From: Hydractinia symbiolongicarpus
Taxonomy: Eukaryota > Cnidaria > Hydrozoa > Anthoathecata > Hydractiniidae
Reading direction: 5' to 3'
Length of the DNA: 64,000 nt
Assembly: GCF_029227915.1 (NCBI RefSeq)
Contig: NC_079882.1
Location: forward strand, 25,301,001 to 25,365,000
In this document: piece after piece, positions 19,248 through 52,200 of the stretch
Layout of the letters: every line of letters starts with the position of its first letter
Position numbering within the stretch: the stretch's first letter is position 1
Program-made: the position numbers and the translations under genes
Notes under the pieces: generated by a model
Told to the model about the DNA's origin: nothing
The model's input: only the letters and a program-made list of their open reading frames with translations
Database searches by the model: none

Positions 19248-22200
19248 ATGATCTGTGCACAGTTCTTTATTTACGTAAGTTATTTTCTTTTTACTTTACC
19301 AAAATCTTGGCGGGAAATTTAGTTAGGAAATCGTATCCTTTATGTTATATTTTTGCTGACAAAAAAATGCTGACGTCATTTCCTTACTAACTTTTGTTTT
19401 AGATTCTGCATGTGGTCAGTTTTGTGTCTGTCTGCAATGGTAAGAATTGTTTCGTAATATTTTGAAAAATATATAGTCACATGAGTTGGTCGCGAATTTT
19501 TTTTATTACTTTTTCATTTAGGAGGCATCGTCGCGAACTTCACCGTAATATACGATTATGTATCAAGCGATGAGATTGTTATTCTGCAAAATGCTATCGA
19601 GGATATTGGTGCCATCTCATCTATGCCCGTTGTACCGTACAGCATACACAGTCCAGACGGTAAGATATAGATCTCTAACAGTTTTTAATGAAATCTTATA
19701 AAGTAAATTTTTTGGTATTTTTGACTATTTTCGCGAAATGTCGCTAAGGATATTACATTCTGTAAATTGCGAAAAAATAAAACATCCGAGGTTAATAATT
19801 CCTAAAATTAAAATGCTATTTAAGTTGAAGCTTGCTGTAATGATGTAGCGTTAGTAGAACGACTTCATACAAACACATTAAAAAAAATGGAAGAATGACG
19901 TCATCAGTGCCACTAATGACGCCATACACGTGATCTGCAAAATGGAATATTCTGATTCCGATAATATAACAACCTTGGTCTGCATTATATACATTTACTG
20001 TTATGTATTGGCAATAAAATGGCGGGAAATCCCAGGAAATTATAAAATTCGTTTTTTTTAATCAGAATGCATGCTAAAAGTTAAAAGAATTCAAAATCAA
20101 AAAGACAACCTCGTCCCAAGGCCTTTTCTTTTCTTTCTGACGACAAGAAGAAATATTTCTTGGTATAACAGAGTATCTTAAAAACCAACTTTTGAAAAGG
20201 CCAGTTAAACAATCCAGTAACATGGTTTGCTACTAAACTTTAATTTTTGCATTTAACATTTGTATTTTGCATCTTATTCCGTCATTCCCCAAATTTGACC
20301 TAACGTCACTCACAGTCGAGCCTTAAAAAAAATTAACAATCAATATCATTTGCATTATATTTTCTATTTCAGAAATATATTACTTCTTCTGTTGCATCTT
20401 CTTCTCTTTCAACTTCTTCTGTTACATCTTCTTCTCTTTCAACTTCTTCTGTTGCATCTTCTTCTCTTTCAACTTCTTCTGTTGCATCTTCTTCTCTTTT
20501 AACTTCTTCTGTTGCATCTTCTTCTCTTTCAACTTCTTCTGTTCCATCTTCTTCTCTTTCAACTTCTTCTGTTGCATCTTCTTCTCTTTCAACTTCTTCT
20601 GTTGCATCTTCTTCTCTTTCAACTTCTTCTGTTGCATCTTCTTCTCTTTCAACTTCTTCTGTTGCATCTTCTTCTTCAACTTTGTCTGTTGTTTCATTGT
20701 CTTCTTCTTTTATACTGTTCTATTGCATCTTTTTTTTCTTCTACATCATTTTTTACATCTTCTTCTTCTTTTATATCGTTTTCTCCTTATATACTTTTAT
20801 TTCCTATGAACTCTCCAAAATTAACTACTATGTTTTCAAATTATAAGTTACGCAAAATTCAGTAAAAATTTATGGGTTGACTACTGTTTTTAAAATGTAT
20901 AGTCGTCCAGAGATGCCATTAGAAAAAAATTACAATAAAAACATTTCACGATATAGATAATAAAAATGACTATTGAATTATTTTATTTAAATTGACTTTT
21001 TTTACAGTTCCTCCTCCACCGTTAAATGTGTCAGCAACAGCTTTGTCAAAGTCGGAAATCAAGGTTACATGGACTCCAGTTAATTTTACCTCACCAAACT
21101 TGACTATTGTTGGATACACAGCATTCTACAAGCGCGTTCTTGACCCGGGTGATACATGGCAGAGATTGACAACAATGGTATAGTTATTTTTTTCAAATTT
21201 TCCTAAAGTTTCTAATTCGATAATTCTTTTCATGGAAGCGGAATAAATTCATGAACAAAATTTTCACCTGAGAAATTTTTCTCTTTCATGATTATGTTTT
21301 TAGCATTGGAACAGATCGTTAATATTGGTTAACTTGATGCCACATACAACTTACACAATCCGAGTGGTGGCTTTTCACCGTCAAGGAAATGGAATTGCGT
21401 CTCAATTTTTCGACGAGAAAACGTTGGAAGGAGGTATATTATTTTAAGTTGTTGTCTCTCTGTCACCTTGGAGGAAAGAATACGGATCCTTCAACCGAAG
21501 ATTTTACCTTTTTATCATAGACTAAATTTATCTCGATCAAATTATCCTTGATTCTATTATATTTTAGAAATCATTCAACTCAGACTTTTAATTTTTATAC
21601 GACCTAGGGCAAAAGTTGTTACTTTGTGACGTCTCAATTGTTTTTATTCTTCATATCATCTTTAGTTCCTGAATCTAAACCGGAGAAATTCACCTGCGTG
21701 TCTGAAAATCCATCAACGATTAGCTTATCGTGGCTTATTTATAACAGCACAGCGTGGAATGGTGATGCAAAAGGATACATAGCTTGGTATAGGGTGTACA
21801 ACTCCGGGACAGAGCTTAACAATATTACATTTTCAGCATCAGCTCGAACGGGTGTGCTAGATGAACTGAAGCAATACACTAAGTATGAAATATATCTTGC
21901 AGCACAAACGCGAGTGGGGAGTGGACCAAAAGCCTGGTGCGTTATTGATACGGCAGAAGGAGGTAGGTCACGTGACAAAAATAAATCATCCATAAAACTG
22001 TTGTTGCATTATTGTATTATTTTTTTATATATATAGTACCGTCTGTTGGACCTAAAATAATTTACTGGGAACTTACTCCAACCCGACCATTAGAGGCGCT
22101 GGTTCGATGGGATCCTATTCCTGAGGAGAAAATTAACGGTCGACTTAGTGGATACAAGATTTACTACGGTGTATCAAGAAATGGAAAAATTAGAATTGAA

Positions 22201-27660: not shown

Positions 27661-29261
27661 AATTTGGAACATGTAATTAATTAACCGGCTATTCATCGTT
27701 GATTTGTGCCGAACACGTGTGGTAATGTTATTTTTTGTTGAAATTTCTTTGAACACATTTGTAAATAACTCACACTTATTGTTCTACGGTTTTAGCCAAT
27801 AGAACTTTAATATGGGCTCCTTTTTTTGTAGCCGTTTTTAGTACCGAGAATAGTGTAGCACGGCAGGATATCAGTCTAGTGTAGCGTTACGGAAATTATT
27901 AGTTTTTGAGTGTTACACCAGACTACTTTGTTGCACAAGGTACAAAAACCTGGTTATTCATTTTGCATTATTGTTTATGTACAGTTGGTTTCGCTAGTAC
28001 CTAGAATTTTTAAGAAGCTACAATCACCCACATAAATATTGAGAATTTTCGATTTTTGACAAAAAAAATTTCACAAACTCGCACCACAAGTCTTCTCAAA
28101 CTCCACGTACTGCCTGCAGGCTCACGGAACTTTAGCTTTAGCTTCGACTTAAGAAAAGTTCACTAGAACGAAGCCTTACAGTGCTGCTATAGGCTAGTTA
28201 TAGCTTTTTACATGTTTAAACCGTGTCAGTTTGAAAAATGGACATTTGCGTCAACGGCCATTTCTGGTTTTTTGATAGAATTTCTAGTTTGTCTCAAAGA
28301 TTATGTGGATGGTTGTAGATTTGTATTTCGTACGAGTTCCACCAGGCCAAAATTCGTTTTGAAAAACGAAATAAATCAAAAGTAGTTGTTTTTACCGCTT
28401 TTTAAGTCTAGGTTTTAACAAAGCAGTGTTTACAAATTTGAACTCATTTTTCTACTTTCATATTTTTCATTCTTCTTTTGCTGCGCCAGTTGAAATTAAT
28501 TAATTATTAATACCGTGAGTATTTTTCTGCACAATTAACTAAAGCAAATACTCCCCCGTAGAAAACCACTAAATCAGTAATACGCCGTAGACTTTCCTGC
28601 CAAAAACGGCTGGTTTATATTTAAATTTAATACTGTTCCGCAAACGAATGTTTTTTTTTTATAAGAAAGACTACAAAGAATTTTATAAATCCTCTTCTCT
28701 TGTCTTTAATCACTAGGCTACACAGTTGAACAACAAGGCCCATTCTTATGACGAACATAACAAAAGCACATAATGTATATTATATAATATATAATAAAAT
28801 AATATTAACGATTTTATAATTACAATGATATAATTGTAATAAATTTTTAAAGAAACAAAAATTTAAAAAAAAATCTGATCGTAATAAAATAACAATTTAA
28901 TCTGACTCCTATATATTACACCTTCGCTTGTTGGTAAAGTAATTACACTATAAGTTGCGCGAAACGCAGATGTCCAAGCCTGCATGCTATGAAGTTGCGC
29001 GAAACGCAGATGTCCAAGCCTGCATGCTATGAAGTTGCGCGAAACGCAGATGTCCAAGCCTGTATCCTATGAAGTTGCGCGAAACGCAGATGTCCAAGCC
29101 TGCATCCTATGAAGTTGCGCGAAACGCACATGTTCAAGCCTGCATCCTATGAATTTGCGCGAAACGCACATGTCCAAGCCTGTATCCTATGAAGTTGCGC
29201 GAAACGCAGATGTCCAAGCCCTCATGAAACAAACGTTTGAAGAAAAACACAACATGAAATA
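27661..29261. other. Gap between convergent genes
   Basis: The FN3 channel ends at 27660 on the plus strand and the methyltransferase-HECT gene ends at 29262 on the minus strand. The gap holds 3' untranslated sequence of both, AT-rich runs near 28770-28860, and the 40-bp array. No gene is supported. I saw no AATAAA between the HECT stop codon and the array on the minus strand, so the array may be transcribed in the 3' UTR. Confidence 0.55.
28952..29225. repeat. 40-bp GC-rich tandem array, 7 units
   Basis: The unit AAGTTGCGCGAAACGCAGAT plus GTCCAAGCCTGCATGCTATG repeats at exactly 40-bp spacing (28952, 28992, 29032, 29072 and on). Variants are few (GCAGAT/GCACAT, CATGC/CATCC/TATCC). It stands out as GC-rich, with TGCGCG in each unit, in an AT-rich setting. 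Confidence 0.92.
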
Positions 29262-32200
29262 TTACCACGGGCTTGTATCTGTATCTATGGAAACACAATT
29301 GTAAATGGCGTATCTAAACAGAAAGAAAGAGTACTTCCCATTAATCATTGATCAGTAACAGTAAGCTCAGGGTCTTTATTGAGAAAAGATAGATATCACT
29401 TTTTTCTATACTGTGATATAAAAAACTGGAAAGAAAGCCATTTAAAAAACCCGCCATCAACTGATATATCAGACTCAGCGCGGTAAAGGTATGTTTTTAA
29501 CAAGTCAGCGCTTGCTTCTTGTTTTTGAATCAGCCCACCTCCAGCAAAAGAGCAAGTTCTCGTTTAAAGAAGGCGCCTCTCCACATGAACAGATACGAAT
29601 AGAGCAGCAAATAAACAATGAGAGTTTTACCTTAATTTTTCCTTCGCTATTTGACTACTTGAATAGTCTGGTAAGAATAAATTGCTACCACACGTCGTTG
29701 CACTTGGTAGGCTGTCTTTATCAACAGATGAGCGCGACACAACAAACGCACTTGGAAGGCGTTTACGACCAGTCACAAATCGGATAAATCTACTCCTTTC
29801 TTCATCTGTAAAACTAGCCAACGCAGTCCACATGTGTAAAACGCATTGACTCGAAGACTGCAAGTTGTCACCATAACGACCTAACAATGACGTTATGATT
29901 TAAAATGGAGATAAAAACTTTTTAAAAAATATCGAGACAATATCGCATACTTACAGTTTGCTTTTAGGTCAGCAACACTAATTAAATTGTCACCGCAAAT
30001 TCCTCTTTCTAAATTTCTCCACGTCAAACATGAAAGCACCGCTTCTGGAATTACAAGCAACAATCCATTGCGTAACGCCTTCACCTGCAACAGATAATTT
30101 TTTTCTAGAGTTTAAGGTGGCAGCAACCCTTTTAAAAATCGGAAATTTCTTTTTTACATAATGAGTTTACGAAAGGTTTATTTCAGACTATATATCCATA
30201 CTTTTTCTGTTGTAACACACTCATGATTTTTTGACTAAAATACTATTATCTTTTACCAAAAATATTCACCCTCGAAAATTCCTCCTTAAATAAAATTCAT
30301 GAATAATTAATTAGTTATGCCGAATATAGTTTAAGTCTACATGCTTGCGAAATTGTACAGAAAGAAATGACGTAATTATTAAAAAGAAAACAACAAAGAT
30401 GGCGCATTATGTATAAATTTAAGACGATCTTCATCATGCTACACTGCACGAGCTTTAACTTGCGATAGAATTTTCGTTTTACTTAAAAATTTTCAGACAT
30501 GCTTGGTGAACCATGCAGCCATGATACGGTGTGCAGCAGGGGATCCTAACAAAGAATCTTTTGAAAAAAACAAAAGGCTATTGTTAAAAAAATAAGAACG
30601 AACAAAAAAAATCCGCACAACGTTTTAAAAGGGTTAACCCAAGGTTCATTTAAAAACAGAAGCTGATGAAAAATAACGAGATTGTAAAAAGTTGGAGCTT
30701 GTAGAAGCCGATATTTTTCTTGTTTATGATACATTTTTAAATAGAAGTTTCTGCTGACTCAGCAATTTTAGTGTTAAGTTAAAATCATTTTATTATTTAT
30801 TAAGGTCTATATTTTCAGGAAATAGTAAAAAAATGGAATAAATAAAACACTGAGTAAATAATTCAGCTATTTGGACAGCTAAAAAAGGGTTACTGCCACC
30901 TTAACTCAGATAAAATATGTCATCTTTTACTCTGCAATAAATTCAAACCTCCATCAATCTCTGCGTTTCAATCACATTTGCGTTTCCAACGCGTATGAGA
31001 TTGAAACCAACTCATTTCCTTAAAAGCACATTTCTACGATTCAGTCGATTTACATTTTTATTTTCAAATTTTTACTTATTTGCTACGAGTAAAAAACGAA
31101 GTATGCAATAAAATGTAATCAAATTCGGGATAATTTGAGGTAGCGATCAAATTCAACTTAATACACTGCAACCTGAAATCAAAAACTGAACATAGCCTAA
31201 AAGATGAGAATTGCCCACCTGTTCACAGCATTCCATCAATCTTGCTTTTCGAACCAACAGCGAATATTTAGCGCGTTCATCACACTTGACCACGATGTTC
31301 GACCCACCCTCAATTAATTCAACTTGTGAAGAATCACTAAGTACAGTGGAGTATGTTTGCTCAACATTTAAACCCATGTATGCATCAGGATCCAAATTTT
31401 CCAAACCATCTAAAGAAAAATTCACTGATGTTTTCTTAAAAAAAATTAAAATGGCAAAAAAGCACGAAGGCATGATGTATAAAAACAAACCGATATTTCT
31501 GACAGCTACTTCATCAATTTGAATGAAATCTTTCTTCCAGTAGACTTGTTCGCCAACTAACATCTTCCAGATTAGCGGAGACAGAGATAGAGGTAAAGTT
31601 TCATCTGTCCGAAAGCAAGCTCCCATGAGTTGACCTAACCTGAAAGATACACTAGTTTCACAGTATAACGCCAACCGAATATACCCAACCGTCACAAAGA
31701 GCTCTAATGACAGACAATTTCAGTTTGACATTCTTATAAAGCACATTCTTATATAAAAAAATCATGTAGTTTGCTTGGTGGACACTACTGTAATTTTTAG
31801 AAGTCTGGACAGCCATTTTGCCATTTATTGTGTCTATTGATAAGTAAAAATAACTCTTCTCTGCTACTGAGCTAAATTGATTCATGATATTATTTTATTC
31901 ATGCACATGCACAGGGACCTGCTGTAATATAAAGCTGTTGGTAAATCGAGCACGTGTTAGCCAAGTATACTTTTCGCGAAAAGTGAAAAAAATTACAGAC
32001 CATGGGTGTAAAATTGCGGACTAGATTTTTAAATGTAGTTGTAAAAAGAAAGTTTCAGGAAGTGTCAAGTGCAGAAAAGAATTGTCAAAATACAAAAAAG
32101 AATTGTTTGAATAATAGAACGGAAGTGCTTTTAAATTGGAAGAGAAGTGAGCCATAGGAGTCATCGCAGTTTTTTAATATCGAATTTTTCATATAAAAAC

Positions 32201-35200
32201 AAACGTCTTTTAAAAGACGCATTTTAGATCACTTCTGGAAGTACGGAAAAACGTTTTTTAAAAAACGCGTTTTAAATGCGTTATAACAAGAAGAGAAAGA
32301 CGTCCTTAGAAAAGATATATTTTAATCAGATATCTTTTAAAAAACTCATTCTAAAGATTTTCTAAATTCAAATAAATTCAAATTTATTAACTTCTAAAAG
32401 ACGTATAAAAGATGTCTTTGAAAGACGTTTTTAAGATGATGTATTTCAGACATCTTACGAGCATCTTTAACAGAAGATTTAAAAAAATGTCTTAAAGACG
32501 TCTTGTGCCGGCTCATTTTCAATGATTCGCACTTACCAGTGATAAAGATAAAAGTCTTTGCATTGAGGGTTCAAGGTATAACAGTCCAGGTATTCTCCAA
32601 TTTTTGTTTTTTGATTTGGTGTCTTGATAAACAAATGTAGACAGTCTTTTACGCTTGAATCTGCAGGACAGAGTTCATCTGACATTTCTGTCAGACTGTC
32701 TCGAAATCCTCCACCTTGGTCAATTATACCCTCGCCTATGAACTTCACTTCCCACCACTGCTCATATGACTTTTTATTCCATCTAAAAAATAAATTAGTA
32801 AACAATAAATAATTAATCTTCACCTACGAAGTTTTTGAAGATTTGAGGATGCTAATATCACTACCAAAATAAAGCAGAGCTATTCAGACGAACTGCGAGA
32901 ACATTCCCGTCAACTCCTTTCGACTCAACTTGTAAATACGACTTCTAAGCTCGACTACAGTTTTGTTTGGACAGATTTTTTCACAAAGCATATTTGAAAA
33001 TGAATGTAGAAGCAAAATTTGGAATAGTTTGGGAATGTGCTTCGAATTCGTAAATCTTGTAACGTTCATATCATTATTTAACAAGAAAACATTTGTTTCG
33101 CAAATACCTATCGTGAAATCTAAAAATTGAACTTTATATGTGTTTCTACCTTTGGCGACTTGTTTCATGTCGGTATTTTATAATATTTCGCTATGGCACG
33201 CTTCCATACACGAACAACAGTTAAATGAAGAGAGGAGAGCAGAACGGTTGTAAGTTCAGCAACAGTTAAATCAACTTCGGCAAAAACATGACAATGTGAA
33301 TCAAGAATTGTTGCACGTCGACATTCGCCACCGCAATTTCCGACTGACGACATGAATAAGAAAGTCTGTCTTGTGCCATATTGGCATGGTTATCAGTTTG
33401 AAATTTTTTATAGGTTTATTTTGATTTCTACGCTACTTATAAAAAAGGGCGAAGTTAAACGCGATTTACATTGGTGATATGTTTTTCTGTCCTTTTGTAT
33501 GTCCAAACATCGGACGTCTTTAAAAAGTAATCTTGATGAAAATCAACTTGTAAGAAGGTTTAAAGTAAAACAATAAAGTATTTGAAGTCTAAACATACCT
33601 ATAATGAAGATCTTTCTTCTTCAAGCCATGATAAACTTGCATGAACACAGTGTCGTCGATGTCATGTGCATTTCGTTCTGATAGTGGAGTTCGTCGATCT
33701 ACACTGATGACGGGCATATGACGTGGAGATGGACGTTCCGTCGTCCTCAACATTTCCTTGATGTAAGCGTACCTCTTTTTTGATAGGGGCAGTAAAAATC
33801 GACACCTTGGAAGGATTGTTTCAGGTTGATATCTAAACAGCAGAACGGGAGAAAATGGAATATATTACAACGTTAGTAAATGTTACAAAGTTCGAATGGA
33901 ATCGAATCAAAGATAATTGAATGTGTAGTTGCTATGTTTGAGTGAAATCTTATGTCGGGAAAATAACCAACCTGGAAAATGTCTTATTTTTATCGTCTAT
34001 AGGTTTTTCAGTGTCAATTGTATCTTTATTGTTCATAATATTGTTCATATTCGAGTTGGTAGCTTTTAATCGCTGCAAGATGCTTTCAGCTCTTCGTACA
34101 AATGAAGAAAAATGGGACAGTTCACTCCCGTGCCCACGCAAATATCCCATTCCTTTTTTGCCCAACATCTGAAGTTCATTCTTTAGTCTAAATACGTAGA
34201 ACAGTAACAACCTTCTCTATTGCACTACTACAACAAAAATTTATTTCTTTGCTAGGAAAGAAAGTACCAAAAAAAACGTCAAATCCTTTACCTTGTTTCT
34301 AAAGATAAAAGTTGCTCCAGCATGCTTAGCAGTTCTTTTCTTTCTGCTAATTGAAAGGACCTATCCGTAGATATTTTGTCTCGTTTAGCCAGCAGCGATT
34401 GTCGTTGCTGCTTTCGTTCAGCTACAATTTGTTGTGAACGAGAAAGTTGATTAGAAATATGCTCGTTACAACTGATATTCACCTCAAACAAAAGTCTTTG
34501 TTGTTCTTCTATCAAATCAACCTGAAGGAAAAGAAATTATTAGAAAACTAAAATTAACAGAGTTTATATTTCAGATGTATAGAGGCATTCCTTTCTTCTT
34601 TCCTCCCTTAACCATCAATTGCAGTAATCGCAGTACGACAACAGCGTCAAATCGGCACAGCAAGCAAAAAAGTCAGCTTTAAGTCTACTTCCAATTAATG
34701 TCGTAGGGTTAATTTGCAGTCCGCTGCCAACAAATAGTATCATATCTTTCACAAGAACTCGTGTTTAAAACTTTAAATTATGATTAATCCCTTTATCTTG
34801 ACAAAAAACGGATATGAAAGTGCAAAATACACCTCAACATGCAAAAATTGGTTTGGTACTATCATCTCCAGACACAAAAAAGCTCACACAAAACTCACCT
34901 GCTGATTCAGCAGTTTTATTTGTTCTTTGTACTGTTCATCAATATTATCAATCAATTCAAGTTTACGAGTTAGTATCAATTGTTGGTCTTTAATGTTGCT
35001 CATTTCGTAACAGATCATGGAATTCACTTCTTTTAACAACTCTAAAAACATTACTCAAGTCTTCACAACTTGTTTAATTTTCATCTTTTAAAATGTCGGT
35101 ACAAACAAACCTTCGTCTTGTGAAGTTTTTGCCTTCAAGTACACTATCTCGTCATCTTCGTCTTCTTTCAAAGAAGCTGCCTTTTTGTAGCTTTGCGCTT

Positions 35201-38200
35201 CCAATACATTCAACTGACTGTCAGACACTTCAAACGACGCGGCAGTGAAGGAAGGCAGTGGATAACGTTCCTGAAAAAAACGTAAGCAAGAAAATTAAGT
35301 TGTGAATAACATATTGCAAATCATGTTTAAAAAAGGTGTTCCAGTTTATCAGTGTTCTCATCATAAAGATTTGTCATGCCTTTTAGTTGGGATAGCGTCA
35401 CTTCCAATGCAGAAAGTCACAGGTTCAAACCTCCTCTGATTCTGTATGATAGCTGCCCTATATAGTCGTCTTGTTGCGATTGCACTAACTGGAGCAAAAG
35501 CCTCAAATGCACACACAAAAACTTAACACAAAAAAATTTAACACACAAAAAGATTATTACGAAATAAAGACGATACCTAGTTACGAAATAGCTATGAATA
35601 AACTGGAAAGAAAAAAAGTCGTCAAAGGTCGTCTGAAAAAACACAATAAAATGAACACAACTTTAAAATGTCGTTTTTAAAAATTACATTACCGTGATAA
35701 TTTACTTACTACAAAAGGATTGTGGAACTGATTTCTCTCCAGCGTAGGCCCAACTAACGCATCTAAAACATTGTCCAGTATTTTGGCGACTCTAAGGAGT
35801 GCTATACTTCGGTATCCAAGTGTCGTTGGTTGAAATGATGAAAGAAGAGGAAATTTTAGCAATTTCCCTTTTTCAAAAATATCCAAGGTGATAACTTTTG
35901 GTACACAATCCCTCTAAAAATAGACATGGGGAATCCTTACAATTATGAAATCTGGGTAAAAATGTTGGCCCCACCCCTCTCTTCCATCATTCCTCCTCCT
36001 CCCCAACACCCCGCTTTTTTTTCTTTTCCACTTCTTTGATTTTATGAAATTTAGAGCCTTTTTTATATTAATGCTCCAATTTGAAGTATTTCATGAATTA
36101 TTTAATATTTTTTCTGTTGCACAAATTTTATCAATCAAATCTTAAAAAAAGAGGGACAATATGAGGCTGCATTTTCCATAGAAGATAATGAAAAACAACT
36201 ACAAACCAGTGATAAATTTTCTTTTTCTTTATCATAGCTTACTAAGAACGAAATTAACTGAACATCGTGATCAATTGTCCAATCTTTACTTCCAACATGA
36301 GATAAAAGACTTGACGTTTCGTCATCAGTTTGGATATCAACATATCGACTTGATTTATTTTCACATGAAGATTTCAATGGTGAACTTTGCAAAGAGTCAT
36401 CAAAAGTTGTATCTTCCAAACTGGTGGAAGAAGAATATATGTTATCAGTACTCCCACTTAAAGTATGTACCGAATTATCACAATTTTCTTCTGTTGCACA
36501 AATTTTATCAATCAAACCGTCCACACATTTCTTGACATCTTCACAAATAGACGCTTCCGTGCTAATAACGTACTTTTCAATTTGATTCTTACACATTTTT
36601 TCATCCGCAGGAATGTTTAATTGACAACCTCCCAATACTTCTGGAAATATGTTTATATTATTGTCATTTGTATTCAATGTATCATGCTTTTTATTAATTT
36701 TAACCTTTTTCGTTTTCAACTTAAACATCTTTACAAGTTTTTTAGCAGCATTAGGATTTACAATTTCCACACCTTTTAGCTCAAAGCACTTTTTTCGACG
36801 CTCATTTGTCGTCGAACAAACAGAATAATAATAATCCACAACACTCTCCCAAAGTTTGTCAAAACATAAATGCTCCCAAATATTATTGGCAATTTTTTCA
36901 CCAATTTCAAATTCATTAATATGCATTTTATCTCTGGCTGAAGGTATTGCTTGCTGAGATAAAATATCCAAGACACTTTCATTTAACCTTGCAGTGTGGT
37001 CTAAATTATGATCTCTTGAAGTCAATCTAGGACCTAGAAATGTTCCCTCCTCTCTGTTCTCATTGCGAGTCGATGACTCAGTTCGTGACATTCCAAAGAG
37101 TTCGTTAAACACGGTAGGTGGGGATGCAGCTAAAAGAAACTCTTGTATTGTCATAAGTGGGTTTGGAGCAGTTCTTGATAAAGAAGATAAAAGTTGTGTT
37201 GATTCCTCAATAGTTTGAACAGGAGAAATAGGGTTTGAGGCTGAAACATTTGTTTTGTTTGGGCTTTCATTTTCAGTAGGAATCATCGCAAGAGTTTGAC
37301 AGTCTATAACTCTCTTGTACTGTTTGTATGCATTTATTTGATCACGCTGTGGAACATAACATAAAGCAGGAGGTATATGGCCGTCTTCTTCTAAACAGTC
37401 TAAAAACAGTCAAAACAGATTAAGTAGTTGCATTTTAATGTTGAAAGCTTGTAATAAATAGAAAAAAAACAGGTTTGAAGCATGAAATATTTTAACAGGT
37501 ATAAAAAATATGTTGTCTTTCATTTTGTTTTTACTATAGTTACACATTACAAACAAAGCCATCAGTAATGGTTATTGAAGGTGTCAATTATTGTAAAATT
37601 TACAAACACAAATTCTCATCAACTCAACAGGGCAAAGCATTTTTTCTTGATACCTGGAAAAAACAAAAGAAATACCCAGTATGTGCTGAATTGCTCTTAG
37701 TCGCGACAATTTCTTCCTAGCAGGGCTATTGCTCACTGAGAAATTCGGTTTTAAAAATATTGTTTTCTAGAGATAAAAAAATTAATTGCAATTAAACTTT
37801 TTAAAAATTAGAAGACTTATTTGAGACCTAATTAAAACCACAAACATTTTAGAACTGACCTTAGTTTTTGGTTTTTTCAGCTTAATAGGGAACTGGATAA
37901 GTGGTAACAGTCCATGTCGAAGTTTGGTTACATCCTTTGGCTCCATGCGAGTCAAATACGCAAAACATACATCACTTATGACAGTTTTTACGCCTTCCTT
38001 ATGAGAAACACGTTCCAGTTTGATTAACTGAAAAATATTAAAAATAAAGTTATATCCAAAATATACCACCAAATACAGTTTTACTTCCATGTGAGAATAT
38101 ATTTTTTTTACCTTTGTCCCAACTGGTGCTATTAAGAAACCTCCAACTTTCAAAAATTCCAGAAAAAAAGTTATTGTTGATTGAGAACAAGCCCCTCCAC

Positions 38201-41200
38201 AGTACAGTCTAAAGAGTAACATTAAATATGATAACTGGCGTGGAAATAATAAAGTCATATTAAATTAGATAAGACTGGTCAGTTTAAATTTTGTTCTATA
38301 CAGCTCTAAACATGCACCAGAAATACTGCAACTTCTTTTTGTCTACAACAGGAATAATTAACTAAACTATGCAAGTTGTAGTGGGCAATAACAACTAATA
38401 CAAAAGATAGTCTATATTTTAAGAATTATAGAAAGCAGTATTTTTTATCTTCCTTAAAAAACATCAAAACAAAAAATTATTACCTGTCATATTTAAGTTG
38501 ACCAGGATCAAGCTGGAAACAATTTCCAGTAAGAAGAACAGGAGGGCAAATTTCCTTGGCATCCACTGGACCATTTGATAAAAAATCGTTGATGCGTTCC
38601 TTTGAAAACTCGAAAAGGTCTTCATGCAATTCAATACCATGGTTTATGCCATGATGTTTAATTATGTATCCAGCGAGACAAGAAAAATAACCTGTACCAC
38701 TTCCAATGTTCAAAAACGACATGCCTTAAAAAAACACATAATAGCCTTAAAAAATAATATCTGACTTGAATTTTTATTCGTGTGAATTTGGTGTTCTCTG
38801 CCAAATTGAATCCACACAAAAAATTATATTATGTAAAAAAATATATAAAACAGTACATATCCAATGTAGTGAAATGCATAAAGTTTACTATGAAGAATGT
38901 TAAAATGTTACTAACTCCTCTAAATCCAATCTTTGTGGTAGCGAAATTTCTGATGCATGGGCCAAAATTTGTTTTGTTTGCTTTCTTTATTGTAAATAAG
39001 TTTAACAGCCCTCGAAATTAGCATCGGCAATCGGCAATTGCCGTCGCAATTGCTGACGCGGTTTCATTTCGTGACGGCAAAAAACTGCCGAGGCTAATCT
39101 TTGCTGTGCGCTAATTTTGTGGTAGAAAAGTGGGGGACATTTTGATTCGTGAACCCCAAATACAATGATCGAGCGTCTACGTATAGCGACTCTCTCAATC
39201 TTAACTTCCTTTTCTACATATCCAAAACAGTATGCATGACTATACTGTCATTTTTATAAACTTAATGTTTTCAAATTACAAAAAATCTTTATCCATCAGC
39301 TACATTTTAACAACACTTGCAAACAAATGTTTTTACCGCACATGGGTTTCGTTTTTAAAGTTGCTTAAATAACAATTGCGGCATAAAGAAAATCCACTAA
39401 ATTCGGACCAGCTATGGTTTCCAATTGCATTGTCAAATGAAGAAATTATCTACAATTAAATCCACGATAAAATGTCTGTTCCGCCTGTAAGTCCAGTTTT
39501 GCAAACTTAATTCATCCGTGCTCCGTCAGGGTTCACCTCCGCATTAGTTAAGGACCGCATGGCTGGATTTCTTGTGTAAGACCTGGTTACCAACGACGAA
39601 GGGGCCAGGTCACAGAGATTTAGGTCTACGTAGTTCTTTTAACTAACTCAGGAGTCGGTGAATTAGCTAGGATGGTCAGGTTGGCTATGAATAGGCTTGC
39701 TCGTGGATTAAAAGGACAGGACTATTCAATAATTCAAAGACAAAACGTTTTCGACCAAGACGAAAATCTATCGGACGTTTTGTCCGACGAAATGTGGCGG
39801 AAATTTTGTTTGACGAGTCTCCAAAAATTATTTCGAGGCCATCTCACGCTACAAAATGGATTTTATAGGTTGATTTTAAAAACTCTATTTTTCAGGCGTG
39901 CAATTAATCACACGCCTGAAACGATTTAGGAGTGTGCAAGGAGTGTATATTGATATTGAGGAAATTCGTAATATATTGGATCTAGTTTTATATTTTGCTG
40001 ATTGTATAGACATTAAATGCAATTTCATTTAATTTAATGATAGTCCAGGAGCTCATAACAGAACTTTATGTCCCATTTTCTACAAAAGGTTTGACCCTCT
40101 AAATAGGTTGGTAGTATCATGGACAATAAAAATCACATGGTCAGCTGACCCAATTTGGGGGTGTTTGGGTCCCTAATTCGAGACTCCTATTTGGTCCGAT
40201 AATTCTCAAAGCTTAAAAGTTGGCAACATGTGTCATTAAATGAGAGAATCTGAAAAATGATAAAACTTACCGAAAAATTGGGTCTTAAGACTGGGCCACA
40301 CACCCCCTCAAAGACCATATTTAGGACTTTAATTTGTTCCCATAAGCTACAAACTCCATAAGTTAAGAGAAACAATTGAAGTAAAAACGTGAATAAATTA
40401 ATGGGATATTTGCATATTCATAGACTATAAGAAATAGAAAATTAGAAACTGTAGATACGATGTGATAGATTGAAGACATGACAGGTAAAGATATATGTAA
40501 TTATTTCAAGTTTTTAGTTACTGCATGTTGTAGTCAGTTTCGGCTGATACGTCAGAAAAAGTTTTAATAGTCTTTTGTTAAACTAAATTTTTTAAACATA
40601 TATTTTGTCAATTTTTACTTAATTGATTTAATTTCTCATTTCGTAGAATTTTCGAACAAAGGAATATTCAATAAGATCAATGGTAAGAGAAAAACATAAT
40701 TAATTAGAATATATTAATTTAAGATAACCAATAGCAAGTTACTGTGATATTTTGCAGATGTTGTAGCTACTGTAGATGACAATTTAAATGCAAATGGAAA
40801 TACTGACAGTGATGGTAAGTTATAAAGATGCTTTAATGTAAATGAGACCCTCTTTGATTTACAAACCTGTTAGATTATATTGAAGCCTTGTAAATGTTAA
40901 TTCCTTTGTACATTTTTACATTTTAATTATATTACCTGATATTTTACGCTATTTAAGGAAGAATTACAATAATCTTCATTTTAACGTTTTGTTGTTTTGT
41001 ATATTATATTTATGTGACATGACGTATTGTATATTTATACAATATATTTAATGTTTCTGAAATCACCACTTAATCAGGACACCTAAATTTCTGTAAAACC
41101 TTCTTTTCATGACAATGAAAACTGTTTTTGTCAATTTTGTAACTTTTAGAACGATGTTGTGTGCTGCATGTTGGTGATGGATACAAAGTTGGCAAAATAA

Positions 41201-42575
41201 ATCTCTTTAATATGGAATCCCTAGGAAAGTGTAAATCTATCATAGTTACACCTAAAAATGGAAATCAAAAGTACAAGGATACGCAACTTCTTGATTTTAT
41301 GAATAAAATACCAGGATTCCATTTAAATTGTTACAAAAGATTTAGACAATGCAAAAGATAGCATTGTCTGAAACACAGAGAAGAAATCACCCCAACGATA
41401 ACAAAGTAACTAAAGCTGTCCCTTTAACCCGTTCAAAAATTCATGATTATTAGATGGTATCAGAACATTTCTTTTTTAATTTGATACTGCTAACTATTGT
41501 CTGACCCGATCGAGAGACCCTAATTTTTGGTTTGCTTTTTGCCAAATCACAACAGTCTTACAAAATTTTACGTTTGTACCTTATGAGGTCTAATTTGAGT
41601 CCCTGTTCAGATCTTTGTCTGACCTGCTGATAGGACCACATTTTTTGGTAAGCTAGACCATTTATGTATTACACAGTTAGTGTAGAACACAAATATTGAA
41701 TTTGGGATTTGTAATTATTAGGGTTTTTTTTACTGTCTAAAAGTTGTTTAAAATAGGGATTTATGGCATGACACGGTCTGACTAGGCCAAAAGACCAGTG
41801 ACATTACACTATGTTAAGAAATTTTTGTGCAAAATTTGGAGTTTTATAGCTTATGGGGACAAATTAAAGTCCTAAATACGGTCTTTGAAGGATACTACCA
41901 ACGTATTTAGAGGGTCAAACCTCTTGTAGAAAATAGGACCCAAAGTTCTGTTATGAGCTCCTGGACTATGATAATGTTGCCCCAAATATAATTCAATTTT
42001 AGTTAAAAAACAACAAAAGAAATTAGAGCTCATAACAAACCATCACAAAGCAAAACTTGAAAGATAACCGGTTGCTTTCACAATAGCATATTTGATAATT
42101 TGCGTAAATAACTATAATTGATGTATTCACCCAAGAGAGAAATGAAAACCTATGTTGTGCAGTTGTTTGTACGCCAAACTAATTCCAAAATAATTTGGCT
42201 TGTCAAGAAGTGGCAAGTGGTTGTATTTTTTTGCTACTTCTGTGTCATTATTTATTTTTTACAAGTGGGGAAAGCCTAAAATTTGAAACCCCAAACACAA
42301 GAACTAAGCACCTAAGCTAGCGACTTATTTAGTCTTAACTTCCTTGTTTCCGATAGCCAAAATAATGTTCAAATGAAAATAACTTATATCTTGATCTTAT
42401 TGTAAATAATCTTTCTAAACACAAGTCAACTATCTTACCTTTCAACATATGTAAATAAAAAAATAGTTTTATTCACTATCTGCTGGAAGCATTGTAAAAA
42501 AAACACCAGCAGGAAAGTTTCTGAACTTTTCATGAAATAAAATTAAAAACAAAAGCCACATGTGTGTTTAACTTT

Positions 42576-42608
<33 letters not shown>

Positions 42609-43631
42609 GTGCATATTTTACATGGCTAGCCTCACAAATATCGAGGGATATACCCTGTCTATTATTTCCAGGAGGGGCCATGGCTTAGATGGAGAGTCCT
42701 AGAGTATTTAATGCTCATTTTGAGCTACGCAGACCTAATTAGTAGGGCCCACGCTCTACTAGACAACTCCCGGCAACATCCAACGGCCCACACAGTGTGC
42801 CATCTCCATCTGTGCCATCTTTATTTTATTTTACTACCCATGTGGGTAATTTTAAAATATGTTTTAGGTTAATATAAAGTATAATATAATCTTAAAAGTA
42901 CAACCATTTTTTTATTTTTCGATTTATTAAAATCCAAGCAAAGTTTTTTTTTCCGAAGTGATACGAGCTTGAAGTAGGTTCATGATCTTTTAATTACACA
43001 GTCCTAGATATTCTTAAAAAAATCAATATGGTAAATGTGACACATGTTAAAAAATGTTGTGGATTAATGGATAGGTTCAGACTAGCTTTATTTGCTAACC
43101 ACGAATTAAATCATTTTCGGAACTACTAGCTAGAAACCTTTATCAGAAATATACTTAATTTATAGAATTAATTTTCAGTTTTTATGGGTGGTATTTTACG
43201 GATGTTTTTGCGTGCAAATTGAGTGCACATTTCTGGTGAGGCCTGTGTCTGTATAATTACCTTACATTAAAGTAATGTTTATATAATATTACAACTTTTG
43301 AAATTGATGATGAATAAAAATATAAAAAAATTCTAATAACTTGAATTTATTATCATTCTTTTTTGAAAAAAAGTAAAATAAGAATACCTGGTTCAAGTTC
43401 AAGATCTTCCAGAACAGCTGCATACATATGAGGTGCAGACATGTGGATATGTGGTACACCCCGTATTGGAGCATCCACAAATGCTTCTGCAAGCATACCT
43501 TTTGAAACAAAAGCAGCACGACTGACACAACGAAAGGCATTTTCTACTTCCTTGGATGTAATGATGGCTAGCCTTGTAAATTTATCAACCATTTCTTGGT
43601 TTTGATTATTGTAATTTTGCCAAGATGACAT
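29262..43631 (-). CDS. PCMTD-like methyltransferase fused to HECTD3-type HECT E3 ubiquitin ligase
   Basis: Exons in order: 43631-43388, 38724-38484, 38208-38112, 38027-37860, 37399-36243, 35913-35710, 35270-35111, 35041-34899, 34521-34292, 34187-33972, 33832-33599, 32782-32537, 31639-31510, 31434-31219, 30084-29955, 29880-29631, 29313-29262. Phases agree except at 37860/37399, where a small exon or other splice site is missing. About 1,370 residues. Residues 1-250 match PCMTD proteins (HIHMSAPHMYAAVLEDLELE; SAM-site LNIGSGTGYFS; GINHGIELH; CGGACSQ; LKVGGFLIAPVG). A 385-residue Ser/Asn-rich exon ends in DWTIDHDVQLISFL, matching the WTYECDEDLIHFL segment of HECTD3; the next exon continues with LLSSFQPTTLGYRSIALLR. 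A Gln/Glu-rich coiled coil (705-882) follows, then a full HECT domain (QWWEVKFIGEGIIDQGGGF; GQLMGACF; STVLSD; catalytic Cys in TTCGSNLFLP; end RYAIYNCVSIDTDTSPW). The alternative is two tandem genes, but no separate HECT start is seen. Confidence 0.8.
32190..32510. repeat. Palindromic AAGACGTCTT-rich cluster in a HECT-gene intron
   Basis: Between the exons at 32537 and 31639, many self-complementary short motifs occur: CGTCTTTTAAAAGACG, AACGTTTTTTAAAAAACG, GATATCTTTTAAAA, AAAGACGTTTTT and AAAGACGTCTTG. Together they would allow several nested hairpins. No unit length is constant, so this is not a simple tandem array. I cannot assign it to a known element. Confidence 0.55.
40040..41972. mobile_element. 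Degenerate DNA element with long, interrupted inverted arms
   Basis: The left arm (40040-40122: AGTCCAGGAGCTCATAACAG, TTTGACCCTCTAAATA, TTGGTAGTATC) reappears in reverse complement at about 41891-41972. A second arm segment (TCAAAGACCATATTTAGGAC plus TTTAATTTGT near 40302-40355) pairs with about 41838-41890, directly next to the first on the right side. On the left the two are separated by about 180 bp, probably an insertion. The element lies in the 4.7-kb first intron of the methyltransferase-HECT gene. A related arm-like sequence is at 54835-55110. Confidence 0.65.
40647..41361 (+). pseudogene. Fragment of a split reading frame inside the inverted-arm element
   Basis: Three segments join in consistent phase 1: 40647-40682 (FSNKGIFNKIN), 40758-40814 (DVVATVDDNLNANGNTDSD) and 41150-41361 (ERCCVLHVGDGYKVGKINLF onward, ending at a stop). 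The last part has a C-x(n)-H-x3-C-Y pattern (KCKSII, then GFHLNCYKRF) that could bind zinc, as in N-terminal parts of transposon-linked proteins in cnidarian genomes. I see no start codon or transposase core, so it is probably the remnant of a carried gene. The family name is unknown to me. Confidence 0.4.
42570..42609. repeat. (AGAT)n microsatellite
   Basis: An uninterrupted TAGA/AGAT tetranucleotide run of about eight units lies just before the second SINE-like copy, in the first intron of the methyltransferase-HECT gene. Confidence 0.9.
42670..42830 (-). mobile_element. tRNA-derived SINE, copy 2 (tail only)
   Basis: This matches the plus-strand sequence at 4050-4160: AGTCCTAGAGTATTTAATGC, TTTGAGCTACGCAGACC, CTCCCGGCAACAT and CACACAGTGTGCC. 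The tRNA-like head seen in the 4045-4325 copy is missing, so the copy is truncated, as is common for SINEs. Confidence 0.6.
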
Positions 43632-46279: not shown

Positions 46280-49200
46280 ATGGCTAATACTCAAGCACCA
46301 CCAAGTCCCGAACTCGATGGAAACATGTTTGTGTTGAAAAGAGGTTTGTTATTACGTAGCTCTATATTAGCCATACCACTTATCAACCAAGAAATTTATT
46401 TTCTGGTTTATTTGATCCAAAAAATCACAAAATATAAAGCTAAGAAAATAACATCCAGGCCACCATGAAGCGTTTGTACTTACATAAAACAAAACAATGT
46501 ATAAATAAGTGGGGCAAATTTGCTGTGGATCACTGCCAAACGCACCATAACATTTACGAAAATAATACTTCTACATCCGAGAGATGTTTGTTAGATCATT
46601 TTAACCTTAAAGATCGGTGCGACCACCGACCAGAAGGCTGTAATAAGCAAATTTAATGTTGACAGCCTAGATAAATGTTGTCTAATTTGTCTATCATAGC
46701 CTATTTATTAGTTGTCCCTAACTGAATAACTTTATTGTAAATTGTCGGTTTCTGCTGCTGATGTTTGATCTTCAAAATAAACCATAACTGGGCAACATAA
46801 ATCTTCAAAATAAGCCATAACTGGGCAACGTAATGCAAAACGCAAGGTAAATACTAAGTTTTCTTAAAATGTGGTAAAATTGTACCATTGTAAGGTATAA
46901 AAGACAAAATACAAAAAAATACAAAAATATATGCTTATAACTTAGCATAATCAACTTAATTTGTGTGATCTGATTGCATAATTCTTATTAATTTCAATCC
47001 TCTGATTTTTTGTTCAATAAAATTTACATTTTTTTTCAGGTGGTCGGAAAGAGGAATGTCATTTTGACAAGATAACATCAAGGATTAAAAAACTGTGTTT
47101 TGGATTGGATCTAAAATATGTTTCTCCGGTATGACATTTTCATTTGGAGAAGCTGAAAACATGTAAGTGTATGAATATTGTATTATGTCTTTTTTTTTTT
47201 TAGTATGCTATTACCAAAAAAGTAATCCATGGCATGTATGCAGGAATTACAACAGTTGAGTTAGATACCCTGGCTGCTGAGATAGCAGCAGCAATGACAA
47301 CAAAGCATTGTGATTATGGAATACTTGCAGCAAGAATTGCTATTTCAAATTTGCACAAGGAGACTAAGAAGAAATTTAGTGGTAAGATTCAATCCCTTAT
47401 ATTAATTTTTTTTGGCCAGGGGGTGGTTTTAGAACTTTGCTATAGACCAAATGACATGCCTCAGGGTTTGCAGAACTTGCATTTTTCTCTTAAAAACTTT
47501 GACAACCTTGAAATTTAAATGTTTCCAAAAGGATTCCTGTTTAGTTATGAAACTTTGACTTGCTGTTTCCACTAACTTAACTTATAGGTTTAATGTTCAA
47601 CACAAACTATTTTTGGGTATTAACATTACCTTATTTTGTACCAATATATCTTTTTTATGTGCTTTAAACCCGTGAAGTATTTAAAAATAGTAGTGAAAAA
47701 CTTCAAAAAGGCTCCCAAATTGGAGGAAAATAACTTTGTCTCACAAAGAAATGATAATTCAATTTTATTTCAATTTAGATGTTATCGAAGATTTATTTCA
47801 GTATATTAATCCAGAAATAAACAAATGTTGTCCAATGGTTTCTCAAGAAACTTATGATATTGTAATGGCAAACAAGGAGGTAAAATTAATTAAGTTAAAC
47901 AAGAAGCCCTGGGTGCTCTAAGAATTTCTGCTTGCTACCAAAATATTTGATGACAACCTGCTAATTTGTTGTGTTATCGTGCCAAACATTCAAAGAGGTT
48001 TGGTGCATGAAGCTCTGAAGATAAAGCACACAAGTGACATTATATCTTACAACAAACGCAACCAAAACGAAACGTGTCATAATAAACTCACATTTTAAAA
48101 GAAATTGCTAACAAAAATACAGCTTATCATTCATGGTTGAAAGTCTTGCGATTGAAACGTTTATGGTCTTAAATGACATTTAGGTGACAAAAATCAAAAT
48201 TTTGATGTCTCCATTATGTTCAGCATGCGTTTTTTGTTAACTGTGCCAAATTTTCTTGAAAATAGAGTAGTTTTAAATTTTGGACCAATTTTGACCTAAA
48301 ATGACATTTAAGGTGGAACAATATCAAATTTTAATGTCACTATCATGTTCAGCATACTTTTTTTGTGATCTGTGCCAAATTTTGTCGAAAATAAAGTAGT
48401 TTTAATTTTTGGACCAATTTTGGCCTAAAATGACATTCAGGTGGCAAAAAATCAAAATTTCAATGTTGCCGTCATGTTCAACATACTTTTTTTGTTAACT
48501 GTACCAAATTTGGTCGAAAACAAATCCAATTTTGGCCTGCAATTGACCATTTGGGACAGGGTTAGTTAGTTAATCAGTTAGCAGTTGGAAACCAATATTA
48601 TCCTCCTCTCAGAGGAACGTGAGATCCCAGGGTTGATTTTTCTCAAAAAATGCTCCAAAAGAAGAAAACGGTGGTTTTAAAGAATTTCCTACGCCTTCGG
48701 GCGCGGAAATTCAATGAGGAAACTCTGTCGAATGTATTAAGAAACTTCTCTCTTTTTTTGATGTCATAGACTTTTCACTTTTTATCTAGCACATCTAATA
48801 ATTCACATAACCTGGATCTTTTTTGTCCATATGGCAGCTGTAGATAAGATAATCCCTTTGCATTAATCCTTTGCTGATGATTATTTTGTTGCAACAACAT
48901 AAAAAAACCAGATGCAAATGATCGTTGAAAAAATTGGATTCAAAAACGACATTTTGGACCTGATAATTCGAACCCTAAAATGTGTATAATTGCATGCATT
49001 GTGAAATTCCTGTGCAAACTAATTTAATTGTATTCATCATAGAGACTTGATGGGGCCATTATTTCTGGTCGGGATTTTGAGTATAATTTTTTTGGATTCA
49101 AGGTAAGAAGCTCTTATGAGTAGCTGCACATAATGTGAAAATAACTCTGAATTAGAACTGTCAATTTTTTATTTCATTAATAGACTTTAGAACGCTCCTA

Positions 49201-52200
49201 TCTTTTGAAAATTAATGGAAAGACTGCTGAGAGACCTCAACACATGTTAATGAGAGTAGCTGTTGGTATACATGGTGATGATATTGATGCTGTTGTTGAA
49301 ACATACAACCTATTGTCAGAAAAATGGTTCACGCATGCCTCTCCTACCCTGTTTAATTCAGGTACTCCTCGTCCTCAAATGTCAAGCTGTTTCCTGCTAG
49401 CAATGCAATCAGATAGCATTGAGGGTATTTTTGATACACTTAAGCAATGTGCTGTTATTTCCAAATGGGCTGGTGGCATAGGCTTGCATGTTCATTGTAT
49501 CAGATGTTCCGGTAGTTATATCGCTGGGGTAAGTATCAACATATCATATTTGTTAAAATGTATCTCAATTCATCTTTATTATAACTAATAATTGTCTTTA
49601 CACAGACAAATGGCCACTCCAATGGAATTATACCTATGCTGCGTGTTTTCAATAATGCTGCTCGTTATGTTGACCAAGGAGGTAATAAAAGACCAGGTTC
49701 AATTGCTGTATATCTTGAGCCATGGCATGCTGATATCTTTGACTTTTTGGACCTCAAAAAAAATACTGGTAAAGAAGAACAGGTATTTAATATATAAATA
49801 AAATAGCATTAAATGTAGTTTGCCAAAAAGGAAATGAAAAGCTTTTTTGCATATTTATTTGCAGCTCCTAATATTTGTTTCAAATTTACATAGGCTTTAG
49901 ATTTGTAAATCTCTTATAAAATATACATTAAGCCGTAAAAGAAAATTTTATATTTTGTTCTGTACCAAGCTAGTTTCTGACTGTTAATAAATTAATTTCA
50001 CATTGCTTAACATTAATGTGTAATCTTATAGCGTGCTCGAGATCTTTTTTACGCATTGTGGGTTCCTGATCTGTTTATGAAACGTGTTGAGCAGAAGGGA
50101 GTCTGGAGTTTAATGTGCCCTCATGAATGCCCTGGTCTATCTGACTGCTGGGGAGATGATTTTGAAGCCTTGTACACCCGTTATGAATCAGAAGGAAAGT
50201 TCCGAAAGCAAATACCAGCACACAAACTTTGGTTTGCAATTTTAGAATCTCAAACTGAAACTGGTACACCATACATGCTTTACAAGGATGCATGCAACAG
50301 AAAAAGCAACCAACAGGTAAAATTTTGACTGCTAAAATTGAAACCTGGATGTGTTTTATTGGAAATATTGATTTTTTGACTCCTTTTACCTTCCTTGTGT
50401 TCCTACTCCTTTGTGTTTTCATATTTTTATATATATGCTATTGTGAATTATTAATACAGGGCAAGGTGTTGAGAGTAATAACAATATTTTTATTTAGAAT
50501 TTAGGTACTATTAAATGTAGCAACTTATGTACAGAAATTATGGAATATACTGCTCCTGATGAGGTAAGCTGCTGCTATTGTACAATCCTATTTTTTTATA
50601 AAAAGTTGTTTTTTCAAAACAGCTTTGAATTGTGATGTCACATTTTTTCAGGTTGCTGTTTGTAACTTAGCATCAATTGCAATGAACAAATTTGTCACTG
50701 TGGATGAGGAAAATATAACATTGCCCAGTGGAGAGACTGAAGTACAAAAGAAATATGGTTTCGATTTCAAAAGATTAAAAGAGATTGCAAAGGTGTGCAC
50801 CAGAAATTTAAATAAAGTTATTGATCGGAACTTTTATCCATGTGAGGAAGCAAAGAATTCAAATATGAGACATCGACCAATAGGAATTGGTATCCAGGTA
50901 GGGGCATTTTATTTGTTTTTTGATGTTTGTTATGGTTGCTTGTTGACAGATGATGATTTTGTGCGACTTAACAGATTTTACTTTCATTTCAAAATTTGTT
51001 GCAATTCCTTGTTGTTCTTATCTTGGTCGTTACATCTAGCAACTTGTAATGGCTGTAAAGGGGAACATATAGTAGTGTACTACTTGCAAATTTAAGTGAT
51101 TATTGAAGGTACTGATATATCACATTTTAAAGTAGTGTCCAGTCAGCTAATATTCACAAGGGCATTGCAACAAAAGATGATTATAGTATGCTGTTTGTGA
51201 TGTAAATTTTAGTAATCTGATGTCATTGATCTAGACAATTATAATTTTATTTGACCTGCAATATGTACAATACTAACTTAAATGGCTATTCCCTTTAGGG
51301 TCTTGCTGATGCATTTATTCTCATGCGATATCCCTTTGAATCAGACGAAGCGATTCTATTAAACAAACAAGTTTTCGAAACCATATATTATGGTGCTTTA
51401 GAGGCCTCTTGTGAACTGGCAGAGGTAAATGGTCCATATTCAACTTACGAGGGTTCACCTGTAAGTAAGAACATCCTGCAATATGATATGTGGGGAGTCA
51501 CACCAACAGACCTGTGGGATTGGAGCGCCTTAAAAGAAAAAATTGCCAAGTATGTTAAATTTTCAATTCTCTACTTTTACTCTACATTATCTAATAAAAC
51601 ATCGAATTTTATCCACTTTTTCTTTTAGGCATGGTATTCGAAATAGCCTACTGCTGGCGCCTATGCCTACAGCTTCAACTGCCCAAATTCTTGGCAATAA
51701 CGAATCTTTCGAGCCTTATACTAGCAACATTTACTCAAGGAGGGTTCTTTCCGGTGAATTCCAAGTTGTAAATAAGCATTTGCTGAAAGATTTAACTGCT
51801 TTAAATTTATGGGACGAAAACATGAAAAATACACTCATAGCTCACAAAGGATCCGTTCAGGTATGTTTGTTGTCGACTACTTCAACCGCAATGTTACGCG
51901 AATATGTCTGTTTTATAAAAACGAATTATTTTTAGAATATTGATGGAATTCCTAACGATATCAAAATTTTATACAAAACTGCCTGGGAAATTAAGCAGAA
52001 AGTTTTGATCAATATGGCTGCAGACCGAGGTGCTTTTATTGATCAAAGTCAGTCTTTCAATGTATTTATGGGAGAACCAAACTTTGCCAAACTTACTACC
52101 GTTCATTTCTACGGGTGGAAAAAGGTATGTAGTTTATTAATTTATCCATTTGTTACTGACTCTGTAGGACCATCGCGGTGTTCATTTTCTGGATATTAGG

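Follow-up and report, generated by a model that had tools for sequence, protein, structure and literature searches.

A predicted cnidarian protein joins a PCMTD-type methyltransferase fold to a HECTD3-type ubiquitin ligase that lacks the DOC domain

The 64,000-nt window analyzed here (Hydractinia symbiolongicarpus, C8:25301001-25365000 of the genome assembly) carries a gene whose joined exons encode a protein-isoaspartate-methyltransferase-like domain (PCMT), a HECTD3-like body, and a HECT ubiquitin ligase domain with its catalytic Cys, in that order. We are close to certain that this fusion gene is a real single gene. By its sequence, it is a HECTD3 paralogue with PCMT placed in front, without the DOC domain and with a long helical insert. 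We put at about 0.45 the probability that the PCMT domain acts as the substrate reader of this HECTD3-type ligase, probably for isoaspartyl-type lesions.

When exons are joined at GT-AG sites on the minus strand between positions 43631 and 29262, a gene of 18 exons spanning 14.4 kb of the genome is obtained. All 17 introns are of the GT-AG type, the phases agree, and a single open frame runs from a start codon at 43631, with an in-frame TAA just 5' of it, to a stop codon at 29262; with the exon 6 donor at 36207, the encoded protein has 1412 residues. Pfam recognizes PCMT at residues 10-212 (E = 1.6e-24) and HECT (PF00632, E = 7.9e-55) in the spliced protein and no other domain at E up to 1. 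An earlier reading of this DNA from the letters alone (the sequence-only reading) had placed PCMTD-type exons and HECTD3-type HECT exons on one strand, and this is confirmed.

The nearest relative of the fusion protein, P0001 (1417 residues), is encoded on a contig of 4549 nt. As this is too short for the introns of a 14.4-kb gene, the contig is almost surely complementary DNA. P0001 and the fusion protein are identical at 1351/1412 residues (96%) and align without gaps across 17/17 junctions, the sole difference in length being five additional residues within exon 6 of P0001. In P0001, the exon ending in ...WTIDHDVQLISFL extends for 12 residues (VSYDKEKENLSL) before RDCVP. For this reason, the exon 6 donor is probably 36207 instead of 36243, which adds 12 codons; the frame is unchanged either way. 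The sequence-only reading had joined exon 6 to exon 7 at 36243/35913: the in-phase continuation stands, and the donor has to be moved. A stop codon near 36135 falls within intron 6. Because exon 5, which has HECTD3 homology, is free of ATG, and Met is absent from exons 7 and 8, an independent HECT-only transcript appears unlikely.

We searched proteins of comparable whole length with the PCMT part of the fusion protein as a query and obtained 15 matches. Both PF01135 and PF00632 were present in 12 of them, and these 12 database proteins, together with the Pfam E-values given above, exclude a chance join. The matches without HECT were P0013, P0014 (from Scortum barcoo, with unrelated domains run together), and P0015. 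Five of the 12 fusions come from Hydra vulgaris, Orbicella faveolata, Oculina patagonica, Xenia sp., and Dendronephthya gigantea, which we take to be one hydrozoan (Hydra), two stony corals, and two soft corals; in the databases these five are named "uncharacterized protein" or "hypothetical protein". Besides P0001, five more fusions are encoded on contigs between 4.4 and 5.4 kb long; all six span PCMT to the end of HECT. The earlier proposal of one protein with a PCMTD-type PCMT and a HECTD3-type HECT is thus supported, and on the evidence of P0001 and the other short contigs the two parts are apparently transcribed as one in relatives. In P0008 and P0012, the end of the HECT domain is absent, the sequence ending before the Cys motif.

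In a comparison of the fusion protein with that of Xenia, identical residues number 114/225 in PCMT, 170/342 in HECT, and 59/345 in the middle. Since conservation is similar in PCMT and HECT and far lower in the middle, both domains appear to be under selection. A search with the HECT end produced 266 matches, of which the best 120 were examined. PCMT was precomputed for 10 of these 120, all within the twelve fusions; among the other 110, the precomputed annotation gives PCMT for 0/110 and DOC for 105/110. No PCMT-HECT protein was assigned to a named non-cnidarian, either among the PCMT-part matches or among the best 120 of the 266 HECT-end matches. As Hydra shares this join with corals and soft corals, it seems to be an ancient arrangement that has been conserved.

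Among solved structures, the back part of the fusion protein is closest to HECTD3 (phmmer, 7.2e-119), followed by HUWE1 (3e-18). The middle aligns with HECTD3 at an hhalign E-value of 1.5e-45, with the N-terminal and pre-HECT blocks included. The HECTD3 N terminus (PARRRLARIRCL...LPLCFVP in Montipora) corresponds to the stretch of exons 5-6 that directly follows PCMT (hhalign E = 3.6e-12, probability 97.9). After this N-terminal block come the WESVVDYYYS and WTIDHDVQLISFL blocks and then, almost immediately, the HECTD3 post-DOC block IFEKGKLLKFPLL...ILDNVLDALV. Pfam detects no DOC domain (PF03256) in the fusion protein of the window, and 0/13 relatives have one at E up to 1; HECT is present in 13/13 of the same relatives and PCMT in 12/13, the exception being P0016, whose N terminus is missing. 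The insert encoded by exons 8-11, which is not in HECTD3, is helical by appearance and probably a coiled coil. Cys1376 lies within TTCGSNLFLP, at the same position as Cys823 of mammalian HECTD3 (P0045), which we take to be the catalytic Cys. The C-lobe Cys motif is found in the fusion protein of the window and in 10/12 fusions; the other two (P0008 and P0012) end earlier.

In the sequence-only reading, HECT was seen as replacing the Cullin-recruiting tail of a PCMTD protein. This wording is not supported: the segment after PCMT is the HECTD3 N terminus and not a PCMTD tail, seven of which gave an hhalign E-value of 0.89 against the linker. In HECTD3 terms, the missing part is instead the DOC substrate-binding domain. 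We also considered the linker as a relic of a SOCS box and rejected this on the same alignment and on the SOCS box itself (PF07525), which is present in 0/13 relatives and is not found by Pfam in the fusion protein of the window.

In human HECTD3, substrate binding is carried by the DOC domain (PMC5489699). With this domain gone and a PCMT fold present, the simplest view is that PCMT serves as the reader. The ubiquitin-conjugating enzyme (E2) would pass ubiquitin to Cys1376, so that the protein would act as a HECT ubiquitin ligase (E3), and the PCMT domain, in DOC's place, would recruit the substrate. Most likely, this substrate would be a protein carrying an isoaspartyl lesion, or a chemically related one at an aspartyl or asparaginyl residue, since the SAPHM loop found in the repair enzymes is retained in the PCMT domain. 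We infer all three elements: the role of PCMT as reader, the isoaspartyl nature of the lesion, and the ubiquitination that would come afterwards.

The front part of the fusion protein has PCMTD1 as its closest solved structure (8.9e-46), the next being a PCMT at 3.1e-14. The substrate loop reads SAPHMY in the fusion protein of the window and in 11/12 fusions. Among solved structures, SAPHM is found in 1jg1, 4o29, 1r18, 1i1n, and 2pbf, SAIHM in 2yxe, and SAPCI in PCMTD1. Fifty-one other PCMT proteins were compared: 26 have SAPHMY or SAPHIY, 8 have SAPCIY or SAPCVY, 7 have another SAPxxY, and 10 have no such loop. All 8 proteins with SAPC are PCMTD-like, and three of them come from named animals. 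Non-animal PCMTD-type proteins (e.g., P0136, P0142, and P0154-P0156; several are from algae or dinoflagellates) often have SAPHMY or SAPHIY, which suggests that the SAPC of animal PCMTDs is a derived state. The loop Ser of the fusion protein (Ser65) corresponds to Ser60 of PCMT1, counting Met as 1; PCMT1 S60A is described as lacking catalytic activity, in that case the formation of a cyclic imide (PMC11974815, a preprint). Isoaspartyl recognition by the fused PCMT appears plausible.

Several points weigh against such recognition. Motif I of the fusion has Asn (FLNIGSG) where solved PCMTs have Asp or Glu (LDVGSG, LEVGTG), PCMTD1 being likewise altered, and the fusion has GNC where solved PCMTs have GDG, a change common to PCMTD1. 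The fusion of Hydra vulgaris, P0002, is the only one of the 12 with a changed loop, SAPQIY, a form also seen in 2/51 other PCMT proteins; Hydra is known for slow ageing. AlphaFold modeling of the coral fusion P0008 (13 sequences) gave a mean predicted local distance difference test score (pLDDT) of 42, too poor to use, and no claim is based on it. PCMTD1, the nearest studied relative, is reported to bind S-adenosylmethionine (AdoMet), but no isoaspartyl methyltransferase activity was detected (PMC10798966, PMC11514484). Finally, PCMTD2 has been reported as a binder of the receptor tails IL2RB and CD247 (PMC10798966), and a PCMTD-type domain can therefore be a plain protein binder.

An alternative that we find doubtful, though a real possibility, is that the protein is a true fusion ligase whose PCMT fold is an AdoMet-bound dock for particular unmodified proteins, with isoaspartyl damage uninvolved. 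The reported AdoMet binding of PCMTD1 without isoaspartyl activity and the receptor-tail binding of PCMTD2 (PMC10798966) fit such a dock, as do the motif changes that the fused PCMT has in common with PCMTD1 and the SAPQI that stands in place of SAPHM in Hydra; a mere scaffold, however, would not need SAPHM, which is retained in the window protein and in 11/12 fusions, in contrast to the SAPC of 8/51 other PCMT proteins, all PCMTD-like and three from named animals. We hold as improbable an active repair-and-dispose enzyme, whose PCMT would methylate isoaspartyl residues and whose HECT would ubiquitinate recurrently damaged or also misfolded proteins: although the Ser of SAPHM is retained and the AdoMet motif GSGTG is invariant in 10/10 proteins aligned, motif I has lost its acidic residue and the GD motif is changed, both as in PCMTD1, and the genome already holds PCMT1-like genes for repair. 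A reading as two adjacent genes, or as a chimera of the assembly, has next to no chance and was rejected. In its favor, retention of intron 6 would meet the stop near 36135, and the gene model of this species comes from genomic sequence. Against it, the six proteins that cover everything between PCMT and the HECT end are encoded on contigs of just 4.4 to 5.4 kb, a single predicted protein contains both domains in each of five named cnidarians (P0008 and P0012 with a shortened HECT), P0001 bridges the junctions, and neither an ATG in exon 5 nor a Met in exons 7 and 8 is available.

For the history of the fusion, we built a tree of the HECT end from 35 rows of our own choosing, with no outgroup and with P0008 and P0012 excluded (HECT cut short). 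The 12 fusion rows form one group (100/100), and the closeness of the window protein to that of Hydra marks its source as a hydrozoan. Five DOC-type proteins (that of Montipora and four resembling it) also group at 100/100 and are placed among bilaterian HECTD3 rows; constraining the fusions and the coral-like DOC-type HECTD3 proteins to one clade is not rejected by the approximately unbiased test (p-AU 0.401). Of the 36 rows in the PCMT tree, 13 were fusions and 23 were drawn from the 51 other PCMT proteins; a few very-long-branch rows, P0169 and P0142 among them, were retained. Here the fusions form one group (98/96), apart from animal PCMTDs and on the side of algal and other rows (100/98), but the test does not reject a union of the fusions with animal PCMTDs (p-AU 0.28). 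As neither alternative grouping is rejected, the fusion gene may have originated in Cnidaria or earlier. Marin 2010 (PMC2837046) describes HECTD3 as a DOC protein and assigns, in Table 1, two HECTD3-subfamily genes to the cnidarian ancestor, the protostome/deuterostome ancestor being given one; one of the two cnidarian genes is probably the fusion gene.

The whole assembly (480.9 Mb, 76 contigs) was searched for related genes. PCMT gave 17 matches, among them exon 1 of the fusion gene and some weaker, unassigned ones. Two PCMT1-like places lie on C4 (1.94 and 10.52 Mb; VGVIYVPLTDK..., strictly MGVIYVPLTDKNRQW in both), and a separate PCMTD gene with the loop HMSAPCIY lies on C8 at 12.47 Mb. 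Montipora HECTD3 gave 35 matches, led by two places on C2, at 15.90 and 16.52 Mb, that are nearly equal. The locus at 15.90 Mb matches Montipora HECTD3 residues 1 to 831 exon by exon and in order, and covers the DOC region (about 207-354) through segments 196-261, 260-299, 303-327, and 328-362. Eight earlier candidate loci for the DOC-type HECTD3 had given just weak or short matches and were dropped. A PCMT1-like repair enzyme, a PCMTD, a DOC-type HECTD3, and the fusion coexist in one genome; as separate PCMTD and PCMT1-like genes are kept, the fusion is an addition. The paired near-equal places for the DOC-type HECTD3 (C2) and the PCMT1-like gene (C4) represent either recent duplication or unmerged haplotypes.

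No published description of a PCMT-HECT or PCMTD1-HECTD3 fusion was found in the open-licence papers searched. Looking through animal HECT surveys for an N-terminal PCMT had been suggested in the sequence-only reading; the main text of Marin 2010 (PMC2837046) mentions neither PCMT nor isoaspartate, and PCMT is not mentioned in the accessible portion of a 2026 review of HECT structures (PMC13196369). As far as this literature goes, PCMT would be a substrate module new for HECT ligases. PCMTD proteins resemble damage readers and are part of CUL5 ligases (PMC10798966, PMC11514484). In the fusion, evolution has combined the same kind of PCMT domain with a ligase engine of quite another type, one that is without its usual substrate domain. 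Such a join provides an independent, Rosetta-stone line of evidence for the ability of PCMT-type domains to act as substrate receptors for ubiquitination. Taken furthest, the role of PCMT as a damage reader would make this protein the first HECT ligase known to read spontaneous ageing damage directly, with PCMT recognizing, and perhaps methylating, isoaspartyl/aspartimide-type lesions and HECT ubiquitinating the same molecule; we regard this as rather unlikely. Equally tentative is the same idea put as a one-protein triage system that Cnidaria would have retained since before the hydrozoan/coral split. A single purified protein could suffice to test isoaspartyl damage as a degradation signal. 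A preprint connects PCMT1 chemistry with a cereblon degron (PMC11974815), so contact between the two pathways has a precedent.

Table 1. Parts of the fusion gene, in positions of the window
Feature	Position	Strand	Content
Exon 1	43388..43631	-	Start codon, first part of PCMT, substrate loop HMSAPHMY
Ser65 codon	43437..43439	-	Aligns with Ser60 of human PCMT1 (alignment)
Exon 2	38484..38724	-	PCMT; AdoMet motif FLNIGSGTGY and NHGIEL
Exon 3	38112..38208	-	PCMT; motif YDRLYCGGA
Exon 4	37860..38027	-	End of PCMT domain
Exon 5	37676..37766	-	Join; HECTD3 N-terminus homology from NSPARKKLSRLRAI onward (alignment; hhalign E 3.6e-12)
Exon 6	36207..37399	-	Remaining HECTD3 N-terminal block (IPPALCYVP), long poorly conserved stretch, LWESVVDYYYS and DWTIDHDVQLISFL blocks; donor as in P0001
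Exon 7	35710..35913	-	HECTD3 post-DOC block IFEKGKLLKFPLLSSFQ...RVAKILDNVLDALV; preceding DOC domain missing
Exons 8-11	35270-35111, 35041-34899, 34521-34292, 34187-33972	-	Insert relative to HECTD3 (hhalign alignment)
Exon 12	33599..33832	-	Pre-HECT block RCRFLLPLSKKRYAYIKEMLRTTE
Exons 13-18	32782-32537, 31639-31491, 31409-31219, 30084-29955, 29880-29631, 29313-29262	-	HECTD3-type HECT to stop codon
Catalytic Cys1376 codon	29690..29692	-	Aligns with Cys823 of mammalian HECTD3 (alignment)

Elsewhere in the window, a 40-bp unit is repeated 6.8 times at 95% (28948..29220), immediately 3' of the stop codon of the fusion gene. Exons of the ribonucleotide reductase large subunit (PF00317, PF02867) lie at 49184..51932 (+), on the opposite strand, the first exon seen being about 5.5 kb upstream of the fusion start. 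A 376-residue open frame at 56316..57443 (-) has weak, sub-cut-off matches to the Ig-like and MSP domains of CFAP74/CFAP65 and perhaps encodes a cilium protein; another open frame, at 21608..22033 (+), has a fibronectin type III domain. Further tandem arrays are found at 4796..5392 (53 bp, 11.3 copies), at 12970..13340 (22 bp, 16.9 copies), and at 20382..20675 (30 bp, 9.8 copies at 97%), where the minus strand is open and encodes an acidic EEVEREEDAT repeat.

The fusion can be set beside three known systems. With PCMTD1 and PCMTD2 (PDB 9oma and 9omf for PCMTD1), it has in common a PCMT domain of the FLN-GSGTG type; it differs from them in having no SOCS box, in its SAPHM loop as opposed to their SAPC, and in forming its own group in the PCMT tree. 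The fusion combines PCMT with a HECT engine, whereas PCMTD1 and PCMTD2 serve CUL5-Elongin instead. PCMT1/PIMT (PDB 1i1n, 1r18, 1jg1) belongs to the same fold family and has the SAPHM loop, including the Ser on which PCMT1 depends; in the fusion, unlike in PCMT1, the Asp or Glu of motif I is changed to Asn and GD to GN, and a ligase is attached. Human HECTD3 (PDB 9r85, 9r8t, 9r94) shares with the fusion the HECT domain, the N-terminal and pre-HECT blocks, the catalytic Cys, and the C-terminal DTDxSPW. Only the fusion has the PCMT domain in front, the helical insert, and the long poorly conserved stretch, while the DOC domain of HECTD3 is missing from it.

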